Source of the DNA: Patescibacteria group bacterium
Lineage (GTDB): Bacteria > Patescibacteriota > Patescibacteriia > 2-12-FULL-60-25
Direction: 5' to 3'
Assembly: GCA_028688515.1 (NCBI GenBank)
Contig: JAQTXZ010000001.1
Span: 186,001-250,000 of the forward strand
DNA: 64,000 nucleotides
In this document: piece by piece, positions 17,055 to 48,436 of the stretch
Numbering within the stretch: position 1 is the first letter of the stretch
How the letters are laid out: every line of letters begins with the position of its first letter
Made by a program: the position numbers and the translations under genes
Notes under the pieces: model-generated
Database searches by the model: none
Seen by the model: the letters and a program-made list of their open reading frames with translations, nothing else
Told to the model about the DNA's origin: nothing

Positions 17055-19064
17055 ATGTGCGGCATTGCCGGTTTTGTGGGAGTCGGAGCTAAAGATGAAT
17101 TGCATCGCATGACCGATGCTATCGCGCGTCGCGGTCCTGACGATGAGGGCTTTTTTGTTGCCGACGGCGTTGGTTTCGGTTTTCGCCGTTTGAGCATCAT
17201 CGACGTCGCCGGTGGACATCAGCCTCTTACGAACGAAGACGGGTCCGTTTGGGTGATGATGAACGGTGAAATTTACGGTTACAAAAGCTTGATGGAAGAG
17301 TTGAGGTCAAAAGGTCATCGATTCAAAACACAATCAGATACGGAAGTCATTGTCCACGCATACGAAGAGTGGGGAGAGGCGTGTTTGGAAAAATTGAACG
17401 GCATGTTTGCGATTGCGCTTTGGGATTCGCGCAGCAAACGACTTTTACTTGCGCGAGACAGGATGGGCAAGAAGCCGCTTTATTGGACGATCAAAAAACA
17501 AACATTGTGGTTCGCGTCGGAACTCAAGGCACTGCTTGCCGCTGGAGTTGTCGATCGCGAGATGGATCCTATTTCGCTTGGACTGTATTTTCGCACGGAT
17601 ATGGTTCCGACACCGCGTTCGATTTTTAAAAATGTTCAAAAACTCGAACCTGCCACGGCGATGATTTGGAAGGACGGACATGTCGAAAAGTCGTGGATGT
17701 TTTGGGAGCCTGCCCTCACCCCGGCCCTCTCCCATCGAATGGGCGAGGGTGATGCTAATAAGCTGGTTAGCGAACTCGGTAAAATGATTGACGTCTCTGT
17801 CGCGGAGCGACTGGTGTCGGACGTGCCGCTTGGTTTGTTTTTGTCGGGAGGTTTGGATTCTGCAGTAGTCGCAGAAAGTGCTGCGCGACAAGGCGGCAGG
17901 ATGAAAGCGTTCACGATCGGATTTGACGATCCGACGCATGACGAAAGTGCTGCGGCAAAAAAGGTCGCGCAAGCATTCGGCCTTGAGCATTACGTCGACG
18001 TCTTAAAGCCCGAAGCGGCTATTGCGATGATTGACGAAGCGGCGCAACTTTTAGACGAGCCGCTCGCTGATGCGTCAATTCTGCCGCAACTTTTACTTTC
18101 AAAATTTACTCGTCAGCAAGTTACGGTCGCTCTCTCCGGTGACGGAGGTGACGAACTTCTTCTGGGCTATGCTCACATACCCGCCCATCAACTGATAAAT
18201 ACCTTGTCATTCTTGCGCAGGCGAGAATCCAGAGTCCGGATGGATCCTTGGGTCTCCGTAGGACTGCGCCCAAGGATGACAAAGGAAGACGGGATTGTCT
18301 TAAAAAGATTGTTGAATCGCGTACCGGCAAGCGACGGGTACTTCAGTCTTGGATTCAAGACTCAGAGGTTCGCGCGCGGACTCGGCGCGCCGAGTCCGTG
18401 GGCGCGCGACGTGCGCTGGCGTGGCGCCTTTGACAGTTCGACATTGACGTCAATGTTGCTGCCGGAAGTAGCGCACGCTGCCGACGTCGATTATGCGGAA
18501 CGCCAGCTGGCGGAGAGAGCAAATGAAATTAAGAATTATGAATTAAGAATTAAGAATGAGGAGGACGCGGTACGATTGGGACGTGCGACGCGGGACGACG
18601 TTTTTTGGCGACAATGGTCATGGGCTTACCTGCGTACGTTTTTGATGGACGAGGTGATGGTCAAAGTCGATCGCGCCGGAATGTGGTTTGCGCTGGAGTC
18701 CAGAGCGCCGCTGCTCGACACAAGAGTCGTCGAGTTTTTGTTGAACGTTCCGTCGCAATACAAACTCGGCGCGTGGAAGAAAAAGAGATTGTTTAAAGAA
18801 TTATTGAAAGGCAAAGTTCCATCGGATATTCTTAATAAACCCAAACATGGTTTCGCCGTGCCGGTCGGCGCGTGGCTAAACGGCCCTTTGGCCGAGAGGT
18901 TTACTGCTTTGACGGAGCCCGGACGTTTGCATTCGCAGGGGCTTTTCGATCCGGTTGCAGTCAAACGCCTGGCGGACGAGCATCGCGCCGGCAGGATTGA
19001 CAGGCGCAAAGAAATGTGGGCCATGTTCATGTTTCAGTTATGGTATGATAAATGGGCTAAATGA
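17055..19064 (+). CDS. asnB: Asparagine synthase-like glutamine amidotransferase with three in-frame repeat insertions
   Basis: 669 residues. MCGIAGFVG gives the catalytic Cys2 of the class II glutaminase domain (~1-215); LSGGLDS at 263-269 is the ATP-pyrophosphatase loop of the synthetase domain, and KTQRFARG, VKVDRAGMW and ESRAPLLDTRVVEF follow in order. It makes Asn from Asp and Gln, or, as often in glycan clusters, amidates a sugar acid. The protein carries three segments encoded by dispersed DNA repeats: ~220-232 (ALTPALSHRMGEG), ~383-410 (SFLRRRESR to RPRMTKED) and ~491-515 (NYELRIKN to GRATRDD). All keep the frame and lie between recognisable domain blocks, so the enzyme may still work. 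Confidence 0.88.
   Translation: MCGIAGFVGVGAKDELHRMTDAIARRGPDDEGFFVADGVGFGFRRLSIIDVAGGHQPLTNEDGSVWVMMNGEIYGYKSLMEELRSKGHRFKTQSDTEVIVHAYEEWGEACLEKLNGMFAIALWDSRSKRLLLARDRMGKKPLYWTIKKQTLWFASELKALLAAGVVDREMDPISLGLYFRTDMVPTPRSIFKNVQKLEPATAMIWKDGHVEKSWMFWEPALTPALSHRMGEGDANKLVSELGKMIDVSVAERLVSDVPLGLFLSGGLDSAVVAESAARQGGRMKAFTIGFDDPTHDESAAAKKVAQAFGLEHYVDVLKPEAAIAMIDEAAQLLDEPLADASILPQLLLSKFTRQQVTVALSGDGGDELLLGYAHIPAHQLINTLSFLRRRESRVRMDPWVSVGLRPRMTKEDGIVLKRLLNRVPASDGYFSLGFKTQRFARGLGAPSPWARDVRWRGAFDSSTLTSMLLPEVAHAADVDYAERQLAERANEIKNYELRIKNEEDAVRLGRATRDDVFWRQWSWAYLRTFLMDEVMVKVDRAGMWFALESRAPLLDTRVVEFLLNVPSQYKLGAWKKKRLFKELLKGKVPSDILNKPKHGFAVPVGAWLNGPLAERFTALTEPGRLHSQGLFDPVAVKRLADEHRAGRIDRRKEMWAMFMFQLWYDKWAK
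17712..17749 (+). repeat. CCCTCACCCC...GAGGG repeat word inside asnB
   Basis: A 38-nt C/G-rich imperfect palindrome (CCCTCACCC at the left, GGGCGAGGG at the right) encoding ALTPALSHRMGEG in frame. It has no counterpart in the AsnB family and resembles small palindromic repeats known from other bacterial genomes. Confidence 0.7.
18204..18285 (+). repeat. dRS3-like repeat word inside asnB
   Basis: Starts TTGTCATTCTTGCGCAGGCG and ends CCCAAGGATGACAAAG. The same word occurs at 37935-38065 (tail of the DUF2304 gene), 41453-41490 and, inverted, at 51418-51447. The left half is shared almost base for base with the 51418 copy (about 26 nt), the right half with the 37980 copy. Read in frame here as about 27 residues. 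Confidence 0.8.
18527..18590 (+). repeat. AATTAAGAATT word followed by ACGATTGGGACGTGCGACG word inside asnB
   Basis: Two different words lie side by side: an AATTAAGAATTATG tandem (18527-18560) and the 19-mer ACGATTGGGACGTGCGACG (18572-18590). The 19-mer recurs exactly at 38096-38114 and 46714-46732, each time inside or at the start of a gene. Confidence 0.8.
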
Positions 19065-38069: not shown

Positions 38070-39176
38070 ATGGAATCATCCTCTCTTGACGCGGGACGAT
38101 TGGGACGTGCGACGTGTGACGTCATTGTAGTTTCATACGATCATGCGCGGTTTTTTGATAACTTGTTCGATTCGCTATCAAAGGTCGATTATCCTCGCGA
38201 ATTGTGGCGTTTGCACATCGTCATTAATAAAGACGATGACGGAACTTTCGAGGCGGTTCAGCGTCTTCGCGCAAAATATTCATCCGAGCTTCCGGAGCTG
38301 ATTGTGCATGAGCCTCATGCTAACCTGGGATTTTCGGGCGGCAATAATCTGGCGATTATTTGGGCCATGCAACGCGGCGCTGAATTCGTCTATCTTTTAA
38401 ATCCTGATACTGCGGTCAATCCGAACTTTTTGACCGAAGCGATTAAGGTCGCACAAAGTGAAAAAGGCGTTGGTTCCGTTCAGTCGCTTTTATTGCGAGG
38501 AGATAATCCGCAACAAATTAATTCGCGCGGCAATGCTTTGCATTTTTTGGGATTTGGTTATTGTTTGGGCGATCACGAGTCGATAGAAAAAGCGTCAACA
38601 GAAGTCACCGACATCAGTTACTCATCCGGCGCTGGAGTTTTACTACCAGTCAAAGTTTTGGAAAAAGTCGGACTCTTGGATGAAACTTTATTTTCTTATC
38701 ACGAAGATTTGGATTTGGGTTGGCGTATAATGTTAGCTGGATACAGAAACGTCATTGCGCCAAAGAGTATCGTTAAACACTATTACGAATTTTCACGCTC
38801 AATATCCAAGTGGCATTGGATGGAACGTAACCGCATCGCGGTCGTGTTAAAGAATTATTCTTTTTGGACATTGTTGCTGATGGCGCCCGCGCTTGTCGCG
38901 ACAGACGTCGCGATTTGGACTTTTGCGGTAAAGGGCGGATGGCTTAAAGAAAAGTGGAGAGCGTCTATTTGGTTCTTGAAGCCAAGCACTTGGAGATATA
39001 TTCTGAACGGGCGCAACCAAATCAGGCGCACGCGGCGCGTACCGGATTGGTTGATTATCAGCCGCATGACTTGGAGGATTGAATATCAGGAATTGAAAAG
39101 CGGTTGGGCGGAAAAAATCGCCAATCCGTTTTGGAAAGCCTTTTATGTCAGTTACAGATTGATCGTAAGATGGTAA
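38070..39176 (+). CDS. Glycosyltransferase family 2 (rhamnosyl/WcaE-like), N-terminus altered by a repeat
   Basis: 368 residues. The GT2 core is clear: CDVIVVSYDHARFFDNLFDS, INKDDDGTFEAV, LGFSGGNNLAI, LNPDTAVNPNFL and SYHEDLDLGWRIMLAGY. The first ~15 residues (SSSLDAGRLGRATCD) are encoded by the ACGATTGGGACGTGCGACG repeat word, so the start was either replaced or extended. A C-terminal hydrophobic stretch (TLLLMAPALVATDVAIWTF) may be membrane-associated. It probably adds a deoxyhexose to a growing glycan. Confidence 0.85.
   Translation: MESSSLDAGRLGRATCDVIVVSYDHARFFDNLFDSLSKVDYPRELWRLHIVINKDDDGTFEAVQRLRAKYSSELPELIVHEPHANLGFSGGNNLAIIWAMQRGAEFVYLLNPDTAVNPNFLTEAIKVAQSEKGVGSVQSLLLRGDNPQQINSRGNALHFLGFGYCLGDHESIEKASTEVTDISYSSGAGVLLPVKVLEKVGLLDETLFSYHEDLDLGWRIMLAGYRNVIAPKSIVKHYYEFSRSISKWHWMERNRIAVVLKNYSFWTLLLMAPALVATDVAIWTFAVKGGWLKEKWRASIWFLKPSTWRYILNGRNQIRRTRRVPDWLIISRMTWRIEYQELKSGWAEKIANPFWKAFYVSYRLIVRW
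38096..38114 (+). repeat. ACGATTGGGACGTGCGACG word at the GT2 start
   Basis: Exact 19-mer shared with 18572-18590 and 46714-46732. Here it encodes part of residues 9-15 of the GT2. Confidence 0.85.
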
Positions 39177-45858: not shown

Positions 45859-46755
45859 TCAGGAGTCAACACCAATTATCTTGCCTTGAGCGGCGGGCTC
45901 CTCGTCGCAGCTCCACGTGTTGAGGTCCTGCGAGAGGACCTTCGGCACCTTGCCGTTGCCGCAAGCGCAAGGCGGCTTGCTGGTATCGGCCTTGTCGGCG
46001 ACTGCCGCAAGACAGGACACGGCGGAGCCGATGCACTGTTGCTGAACGGAAACGGCGCTTGTCGAGCCGTTCTTTTTGGTGACCATGGTGAAGTTGCGCG
46101 TCGCGGACGACCCGGACGTGCACTCGTAGTTGAGTTCTTTGACCTCGCTCGAGGTCGAGGTCGCAACCGGCGCGGGCTTGGGAGCGGGCGGCGAGGCGAC
46201 TGTCGAACTCGGCGTCGCTGCAGGCGGCGTCCAGTGTGTCGAGGGTACGGTCGGTGCGGACGGCAGAACCGGAGTGACCGTCGCCGTGGACGTTGATGTC
46301 CGCGCGCTGACACTCGCACTCGTCGCGGCGAATGTCGGCGGCTCAGGCGGCGGGATGAGTCCCGGGTACTTGCAACTCCCGTCGGCGTTCATCGTGCACG
46401 AGAAGCTGAGAACGGCCGGTCGGCAGTGAGTTGCAGGGTCGTCGCCGGGGATGACGGCGTTGTACCACTCGACCTTGCGGGCACCCTGCGTGCACGAGCA
46501 TGTGACGTTATACGGCTGGTTGTCACCATCAACGTCGTACTCGCGCTGCGGGGTCTGTCCCTCGCACACGGCAGGGAGCTGCCCAAGAGCCGGCACGTAG
46601 TCGTACTCTGCGGAGCCCTCCTGCTCGCTGCTGTAACGAACTCCTCCCTGCCGGTGGCACCCCGCGACGATGAGCGTCGCGAAGAGCGCAGTGAGCGTCA
46701 GCATCGACGTGGGACGATTGGGACGTGCGACGTAGGACAATACTTGATGTTTCAC
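45859..46755 (-). CDS. Cys-rich secreted lipoprotein with a repeat inserted in its N-terminus
   Basis: 298 residues from GTG 46755, which has GGAGG 7 nt upstream. Lipobox LIVAGC ends at Cys33. The N-region (SYVARPNRPTS) comes from the ACGATTGGGACGTGCGACG repeat; without it the signal would be MLTLTALFATLIVAGC, starting at ATG 46704. The mature part has two Cys-rich blocks (TCSCTQ, HCRPAV, FSCTM, then YECTSG, QQCIGSAVSCLAA, CACGNG, WSCDEE) joined by a ~70-residue Pro/Thr/Ser/Ala linker. GC-rich and unlike its neighbours. Function unknown; probably a disulfide-stabilised surface protein. Confidence 0.75.
   Translation of the reverse strand: MKHQVLSYVARPNRPTSMLTLTALFATLIVAGCHRQGGVRYSSEQEGSAEYDYVPALGQLPAVCEGQTPQREYDVDGDNQPYNVTCSCTQGARKVEWYNAVIPGDDPATHCRPAVLSFSCTMNADGSCKYPGLIPPPEPPTFAATSASVSARTSTSTATVTPVLPSAPTVPSTHWTPPAATPSSTVASPPAPKPAPVATSTSSEVKELNYECTSGSSATRNFTMVTKKNGSTSAVSVQQQCIGSAVSCLAAVADKADTSKPPCACGNGKVPKVLSQDLNTWSCDEEPAAQGKIIGVDS
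46714..46732 (+). repeat. ACGATTGGGACGTGCGACG word in the lipoprotein start
   Basis: Third exact copy of the 19-mer (others 18572 and 38096), read on the opposite strand as part of the lipoprotein N-region. Confidence 0.85.
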
Positions 46756-46926
46756 GGTGCGACCTCCTCTGGAAAGACGACAGGCTGTAGACGACAGACG
46801 ACAGGAGTTATCTGTGTCCGACGTTTCGTGTTACATGTTCCATCGCTTCATGTTACATGCAATCGATGTGTCAACGTAGCAGAGAACTCGCATTATGTCA
46901 ATATCTCTGCTAAAATTTCAAGACTT

Positions 46927-48345
46927 ATGTTGCATCAAATAAAAGAGCTGATTAAACGTCTGATTCCGGTGTCTTGGCTTGATTGGTATCATTCATTTTT
47001 GGCTAAAATAGCAGCTTTTTGGTACGGCAATCCATCTCAAAAGTTGATAGTAATCGGGGTTACCGGCACCAATGGAAAGACGACGACGGCTTATTTGACG
47101 GCAAAAGCTCTCGAAGCTGGGGGCGTCAAAACAGGTTGTACGACCACGGCCATATTTAAAATCGGCGACAAAGAGTGGCTAAATGCAACAAAAATGACCA
47201 TGTTGGGGCGTTTTGCATTGCAAAAGACGCTAAAACAAATGGTTGATGCCGGATGCAAATATGCGGTTGTGGAAACTTCTTCGCAAGGCGTTTTGCAGCA
47301 TCGTCACAAACAAATTGCTTATGACATCGGAGTGTTTACCAATCTGACGCCGGAGCATATCGAAGCACATGGAGGATTTGAAAATTATAAACAAGCCAAG
47401 ATCGAGCTCTTCAAGCATATCGCGAGTTTGCCGACAAAAGTCATCAATGGAAAAACCGTTCCACGAGCGTTTGTTTTGAATAAAGATGATGAACACGCCA
47501 AAGATTTTGCCATCAAAGGTCAGCAAGTAACTTGGTATGGCTTGGGAGATGGATGCAATGTGCAAGCGTCTGATGTTAAAGAGACATTTGGCGGTATTAG
47601 TTTCGTCATCTTGAGCGTAGTCGAAAGATCCGGATTGGTCGGTCCAGATCCTTCAACTCCGTCGGACTTCGTTCAGGATGACAGAAAGAGGGACTTCGTT
47701 CAGGATGATAAAGTTGTTGTGAGTCTAAAGTTGCTCGGCTACGTAAACGTCTACAACGCTTTGGCAGCATTGTCCGTCGCAAAAGTGTTGGACGTCAATA
47801 TGTCTGAAGCCATTTCAAAACTTGAAGCGATAAAGAACATGCCTGGTCGTTTTGAGCGGATCGACGAAGGTCAGCCTTGGCAAGTAATGGTCGATTATGC
47901 GCCTGAGCCGGGTTCGCTCGCCAGACTTTATAAAGATGTCCGCATCTTAAAACCGCAAAGAATAATTCACGTCTTGGGATCTTGCGGAGGAGGTCGAGAT
48001 GTTGCGCGCCGTCCCATCCTGGGCAAAATGGCAGCGCAAAATGCCGCGATTGTCATCGTTACTAACGAAGATCCGTACGATGACGATCCGATGGAAATCA
48101 TCAAACAGGTTGCTGAAGGGGCAAAAGAGGGCGGAAAAATTGAAGGTGAGAATCTGTTTTTGATACTGGATCGCGCTTCTGCCATTCAAAAAGCCATGGA
48201 TTTGGCGCAGCCCGGAGATTTGGTTTTGATGACAGGAAAAGGGTCGGAGCAGCGTATATGTGTTGCAAATGGCAAAAAGATACCGTGGGACGAACGCAAG
48301 GCGGCGAGCAGAGCTATTCTTTCCACCATTGCGCAACGCGGATAA
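46927..48345 (+). CDS. murE: UDP-N-acetylmuramyl-tripeptide synthetase with a repeat-encoded insertion
   Basis: About 472 residues from ATG 46927 (MLHQIKELIKRLIPVSWLDW); upstream in-frame sequence is antisense to the lipoprotein. GTNGKTTT (~47-54) is the P-loop, FTNLTPEHIEAHG and GYVNVYNALAAL are Mur-ligase blocks, and LGSCGGGRDVARRP opens the C-terminal domain. The usual DNPR amino-acid motif is replaced by NEDPYDDDP, so the residue added cannot be stated. Residues ~227-262 (SVVERSGLVGPDP..., FVQDDRKRDFVQDDK) are encoded by a dispersed repeat that lies between two strands of the central domain. A -10-like TAAAAT lies 10 nt before ATG. Confidence 0.9.
   Translation: MLHQIKELIKRLIPVSWLDWYHSFLAKIAAFWYGNPSQKLIVIGVTGTNGKTTTAYLTAKALEAGGVKTGCTTTAIFKIGDKEWLNATKMTMLGRFALQKTLKQMVDAGCKYAVVETSSQGVLQHRHKQIAYDIGVFTNLTPEHIEAHGGFENYKQAKIELFKHIASLPTKVINGKTVPRAFVLNKDDEHAKDFAIKGQQVTWYGLGDGCNVQASDVKETFGGISFVILSVVERSGLVGPDPSTPSDFVQDDRKRDFVQDDKVVVSLKLLGYVNVYNALAALSVAKVLDVNMSEAISKLEAIKNMPGRFERIDEGQPWQVMVDYAPEPGSLARLYKDVRILKPQRIIHVLGSCGGGRDVARRPILGKMAAQNAAIVIVTNEDPYDDDPMEIIKQVAEGAKEGGKIEGENLFLILDRASAIQKAMDLAQPGDLVLMTGKGSEQRICVANGKKIPWDERKAASRAILSTIAQRG
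47604..47712 (+). repeat. GTCATCTTGAGCGTAGTCGAAAG-type word inside murE
   Basis: Begins CGTCATCTTGAGCGTAGTCG and contains the 18-mer GGACTTCGTTCAGGATGA twice (47664-47681 and 47691-47708). It is in frame with murE and adds about 36 residues. Confidence 0.85.
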
Positions 48346-48381
48346 AGGGCGGGCGAGGCTGTTGCCTTTGTCACAACTTAC

Positions 48382-48436
48382 AACTAACAACTGACAAGAG
48401 TTGCTTGGTACTCTTGTTAGTTGTCAGTTGTTAGTT
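48382..48436. repeat. AACTAACAACTGACA inverted repeat
   Basis: AACTAACAACTGACA at 48382-48396 and its exact reverse complement at 48422-48436, with AAGAGT / ACTCTT pairing inside. It lies between murE and the bPH2 gene. Confidence 0.85.

Follow-up and report, generated by a model that had tools for sequence, protein, structure and literature searches.

How does a gene for a cell-wall ligase come to hold, inside its reading frame, a stretch of repeated DNA, and where did that stretch come from? The question is raised by murE in the window (the whole stretch of 64,000 nucleotides that was analysed, from a Patescibacteria group bacterium). The identity of the gene rests on the Pfam domains Mur_ligase_M and Mur_ligase_C found in its frame of 472 codons, on a match of the protein to TIGR01085 (murE) above the cut-off, and on a predicted model that matches solved MurE structures. 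A pseudogene is ruled out, the frame being open over all 472 codons and the positions invariant in 37 aligned sequences being present. The assembly has 4 contigs (1.29 Mb, 99% complete), and murE lies on a contig of 971 kb. A protein search of this genome returned one full-length murE and three other matches, two of which are copies of the repeat and the third a 42%-identical stretch covering residues 39-163; the second intact murE that would have spoken against the sequence-only reading is therefore absent from that search. Upstream of murE, positions 46000-46499 have a GC content of 0.66, compared with about 0.45 around them, and a minus-strand ORF of 298 codons without a Pfam family match (45859-46755) spans this GC-rich stretch.

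Anatomy of the murE insert

Two words mark the insert. The 18-mer GGACTTCGTTCAGGATGA occurs in exactly two copies, at 47664-47681 and 47691-47708, against a shuffle expectation of 0.02, and no further copy is present in the window at up to 3 mismatches; the 23-mer GTCATCTTGAGCGTAGTCGAAAG has one exact copy in the window, at 47605-47627, with an expectation of 0.00. Both words are within the single open frame of murE, and thus three statements of the sequence-only reading, namely the 18-mer found twice, the second word at the start of the insert and the reading of the repeat in frame inside MurE, are borne out. Its insertion of about 36 residues at 47604-47712 agrees with the loop, which is 36 residues long, but the repeat-derived segment is 47605-47709, i.e., 105 bp or 35 codons in frame and free of stops, and the net gain is 32 residues. 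The core of the segment, 47605-47682, is a 78-bp inverted dimer composed of GTCATCTTGAGCGTAGTCGAAAGATCCGG, a short spacer and TCCAGATCCTTCAACTCCGTCGGACTTCGTTCAGGATGAC (Table 1). There are two copies of GGACTTCGTTCAGGATGA because a 27-bp tandem duplication, which adds nine codons, has doubled the right end; the doubling noticed earlier is thus real as a count, but it reflects this duplication, and the unit is the inverted dimer. A long stem is possible in the predicted fold of the dimer, and the DNA fold of the insert shows a modest excess over shuffles (z -1.55). Neither a target-site duplication nor a conspecific empty site was seen.

Table 1. Features of murE and of the asparagine synthase gene in the window.
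Feature	Position	Strand	Basis or remark
murE	46927..48345	+	472 codons plus stop; Pfam Mur_ligase_M, Mur_ligase_C; TIGR01085 above cut-off; own-genome search
Left arm of palindromic dimer, begins GTCAT	47605..47633	+	read from sequence; alignment to other copies
Inter-arm spacer	47634..47642	+	read from sequence; limits approximate
Right arm of dimer, inverted relative to left arm, ends ATGAC	47643..47682	+	read from sequence, alignment; dimer folds on itself
27-bp tandem duplication of right end, holds second 18-mer	47683..47709	+	exact 18-mers 27 bp apart
Asparagine synthase gene, three repeat-derived stretches	17055..19061	+	Pfam Asn_synthase, GATase_7; alignment to 4 orthologs
CTCACCCC...GAGGG repeat word, in frame (LTPALSHRMGEG)	17715..17749	+	second genome copy; 2 matches vs 0 control
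Related GTCAT/ATGAC dimer, in frame	18206..18280	+	absent in 4/4 aligned orthologs
Two repeat words in frame, IKNYELRIKN and GRATRD	about 18528..18599	+	recur in window; absent in 4/4 aligned orthologs

The insert among relatives and in the modelled fold

The turn that is 36 residues long here has 4 residues in 26 of 29 other MurE sequences from relatives, 8 in two and 16 in one; the net gain of 32 residues is counted against the common length of 4. The insert is absent from MurE in all eight same-genus genomes searched, and in 36 further MurE sequences of named genomes the same loop has 0-10 residues. In that set, L074 and L220 probably represent a single record, their contigs having the same length of 16,672 bases, and the record of the window itself may be missing. 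Among the genomes examined, the insert is present only in this species. The longer loop of 16 residues at the same turn belongs to G006 and is unrelated, and the MurE of a Ca. Uhrbacteria record (L194) has a TPPPARGEVGRGA stretch in a different loop that looks like another repeat-derived insert.

A structure model of MurE, built by AlphaFold2 with 37 sequences, has a pLDDT of 87.7, with values under 50 at insert residues 234-241 and 244-259, and the low-confidence insert is placed between strands 223-231 and 263-267. In an insert-free relative modelled in the same way (L220; pLDDT 90.6), strands 220-225 and 228-232 are joined by a turn that is short and ordered. The insert contains no column that is invariant in the 37 MurE sequences. 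In the model, accordingly, the insert forms a floppy loop where a beta-hairpin turns in the ligase's middle domain, with the fold predicted to be intact, and the turn position and low model confidence suggest that the loop would point outward.

Dispersed copies and known palindromic elements

The murE segment is one of many. The right-arm pattern, at up to 2 mismatches, has 31 matches in the genome compared with 1 for a reversed control, and a 131-bp query gave 38 BLAST matches in the genome at E <= 10; the best other copy is 84% identical to the murE copy. A looser scan of fetched loci listed 30 clusters, of which 27 were examined after three had been dropped (two chance-like, one adjoining another). 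Six of the 27 lie inside conserved genes, i.e., those for LeuRS, ArgRS, a GT4 glycosyltransferase, MurE, UvrB and an RluD-like synthase, all of them Pfam-supported and with the copy in frame, and a polysaccharide deacetylase has a seventh in its C-terminal tail. Two more ORF overlaps (C3:114544 and C4:334130), unfollowed or spurious-looking, stand outside the six-gene count. As in-gene cases were found partly via open frames, the frame bias among them is inflated by ascertainment, and the in-gene count is one of intact genes. The element thus occurs in intergenic DNA as well as in frame inside conserved genes, and the inverted dimer can be aligned across the murE, GT4 and ArgRS copies and one intergenic copy. 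The peptide encoded by the murE insert resembles the insert peptides of ArgRS and GT4. One of the six frames is free of stops in the murE copy, one in the GT4 copy and two in the ArgRS copy, and each copy uses an open frame. In in-gene elements at L036, L139 and L002, the left end is doubled at 18-bp spacing, as GTCAT plus 13 bases followed by (G/T)TCAT, perhaps through nested insertion or slippage. The sequence-only reading had concluded that such words can enter essential genes; at least six further genes, including those of two aminoacyl-tRNA synthetases, indeed hold related elements in frame, but the general point has already been published on Rickettsia and on other bacteria (PMC2229807, PMC3733652, PMC3767692), and that the enzyme works with its insert is something we infer.

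A peptide profile of the murE-type element matched 3 of 380 genomes of the class at E <= 1e-5, all of this genus, and on these matches the murE-type subfamily looks genus-restricted. Simpler arm matches, at up to 1 mismatch, were found in 23 of 57 genomes, and control matches in none. Some weak peptide matches (e.g., G020 and G023), located in long frames that belong to other families, lay in frames that seemed spurious on reading and were left uncounted.

Several known systems invite comparison. According to the available text of the respective papers, Rickettsia palindromic elements are fused in frame to conserved genes (PMC2229807, PMC10969869), and RPE-4, RPE-6 and RPE-7 are rich in ATGAC, occupy solvent-exposed positions and can differ in group from one ortholog to another at a shared site (PMC3767692). 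The present element is like them, as far as they are described there, in being an ATGAC-rich palindrome in the size range of about 70-190 bp that lies in frame in conserved genes, including those for tRNA synthetases and an excinuclease (PMC3767692, PMC2229807), and in that orthologs may bear elements of different groups at one site (PMC3767692). In contrast to RPE-4/6/7, it is found in another phylum, and the likeness is one of the way of working, as judged from description. The RPE1 model TIGR01045 had no match in the genome, nor in the control genomes, and the insert peptides had no family match in NCBIfam or Pfam.

RPE-4 and RPE-6 have been classed among the CGTC- or TGTC-tagged REPs, which, in the part of the source available, are described as mostly head-to-head dimers that lack a dedicated transposase and of which some lie within genes for Uvr proteins, tRNA synthetases and pseudouridine synthases; Patescibacteria are not among the five phyla given there (PMC3733652). 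The present element shares with this description the TGTC or CGTC tag followed by AT, the head-to-head dimers, and in-frame copies in uvrB and in tRNA synthetase and pseudouridine synthase genes, and no dedicated transposase was found for it either. Among 33 arms ending in ATGAC, 30 have TGTC and 3 have CGTC, a count in which GTC is fixed by arm selection and only the fourth base is free. The murE-type arms differ from the CGTC-tagged REPs, as portrayed in the same text (PMC3733652), in lacking the stem of 8-9 bp, the loop of 4-5 bases and the CCA tail; single arms are predicted to fold with a 5-bp outer stem and have other tails. The left arm of the dimer in asparagine synthase is closer to the CGTC REP form of stem, loop and tail than the murE-type arms are. 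REPINs, as presented in the accessible portion of PMC3116915, are extragenic, tied to RAYT genes, and replicate as a unit in which a spacer separates two REP arms of opposite orientation. The inverted arm pair with a spacer is common to both, whereas the element here has in-gene copies and the genome only a partial Y1 transposase match with no arms nearby. That single Y1_Tnp match covers profile positions 37-121, and arms were likewise absent from seven further loci with a Y1_Tnp match, L126 being the only one of these from the same genus. Being partial and unlinked to arms, the Y1 transposase was rejected as the mobiliser; a plasmid or phage origin was rejected as well, neither collection giving a match.

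Since the element has the tag and the dimer form of CGTC-tagged REPs but departs from their stem, loop and tail, it is called RPE-like here and filed in no named family. It is a new RPE-like family in Patescibacteria, apparently restricted to the genus. In the titles and abstract starts of open-licence papers, no report of palindromic or in-frame repeats in Patescibacteria, CPR or Uhrbacteria was found.

Origin of the insert and repeat-bearing loops elsewhere

With high confidence, the insert can be regarded as a copy of a small, non-autonomous, dispersed palindrome that entered murE in a stop-free frame at a loop, survived selection and later had its right end doubled. The element, about 78-108 bp in length, would be built from a pair of REP-like arms tagged YGTCAT and inverted to each other, and it is spread over the chromosome and presumably mobile by copying around it. 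Entry into murE would have occurred in the sole stop-free frame, at the beta-hairpin turn of the middle domain, where a floppy loop would leave the fold undisturbed; the enzyme presumably tolerated it, and the copy would thus have survived selection, the 27-bp duplication of its right end coming later. The insert is probably translated, and MurE is likely to be active with it. The same process would have acted in other genes, so that the visible in-gene copies are those that outlasted purifying selection after insertion, being in frame, free of stops and placed in a loop.

Other explanations fare poorly. An assembly artefact, in which repeat copies gave a chimeric join inside murE, could be imagined, since the element is repeated in the genome and repeats mislead assemblers; it is nevertheless very improbable, as neither the murE frame nor either flank is disrupted, the murE copy is distinct in sequence (84% identity to its best counterpart), seven genes have different in-frame copies, and the contig extends over 971 kb. 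A similarly slight chance attaches to co-option, in which the extra loop would now serve MurE, for instance by binding a partner or in regulation. The persistence of the insert in the only full-length murE copy found, and the loop of G006 at the same turn, are points in its favour, but they are outweighed by the confinement of the insert to this species among the genomes examined, by its modelled disorder, and by a peptide that resembles those in the unrelated ArgRS and GT4, as expected of a mobile element. The least probable proposal is that the insert is present in the mRNA and missing from the protein through ribosome bypass or RNA removal: the dimer is able to fold as a long RNA hairpin, yet the in-gene copies keep frame and have no stops, neither of which a bypassed insert would need, and no known RNA family matches 46900-48400.

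Sister genomes place the dispersed palindrome in a wider setting. UvrB was aligned in all eight same-genus genomes, the RluD-like synthase in six of eight and ArgRS and GT4 in four of eight each, and none of these sequences has this element; for ArgRS the match table leaves no room for it in the other four genomes, and for GT4 the loop is long and variable in all. The LeuRS loop that bears the element in this species (seven of eight genomes aligned; loci L036, L139, L140 and L141 for this species, G004, G002 and G006 together) is occupied in G002 and G004 by an ATGAC-tagged dimer of another kind, and G006 has other repeat-like words there. G001 has its own in-frame copy of the element in another glycosyltransferase, and its UvrB (L131) has a repeat-like insert, PLPPFHKG...KGGNEGG, in the loop that holds the palindromic element here.

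A second case in the window is the asparagine synthase gene, with its three kinds of repeat in one frame. At the stretch encoding LTPALSHRMGEG, the four aligned orthologs are about five residues shorter, and the words farther downstream recur in the window (3 matches vs 0.01 expected, and 8 vs 0.00); the other four same-genus genomes gave no full-length match to this protein.

In-frame palindrome insertion is already known from Rickettsia, and what is notable here is the phylum and the density of inserts. It is conceivable, although at somewhat less than an even chance, that core-enzyme loops in this genus are landing places for several unrelated repeat families, and that selfish repeats are a leading and continuing source of new peptide segments in these reduced genomes. 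This reading is drawn from the LeuRS loop, with ATGAC-type elements in three species (two of them sisters with a different element) and other repeat-like words in a fourth, from one UvrB loop with different repeat types in two species, and from the three repeat kinds in asparagine synthase. A phenomenon best known from Rickettsia is thereby extended to Patescibacteria, whose genomes are small, reduced and mostly from uncultured organisms. If the density is as in the sampled genes, sister species would offer many natural experiments, the same enzyme with and without a new loop, and these would make it possible to measure how essential proteins gain peptide segments from mobile DNA and what this costs.

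Two smaller observations may be added. The element peptide is found near the N-terminus of a putative GrpE, a gene name given by reading, in G001 and G004 (L234 and L189). In the window, GATTGGGACGTGCGACG has three exact copies, at 18574-18590, 38098-38114 and 46716-46732, against 0.01 expected, and the first of them is in frame in asparagine synthase.
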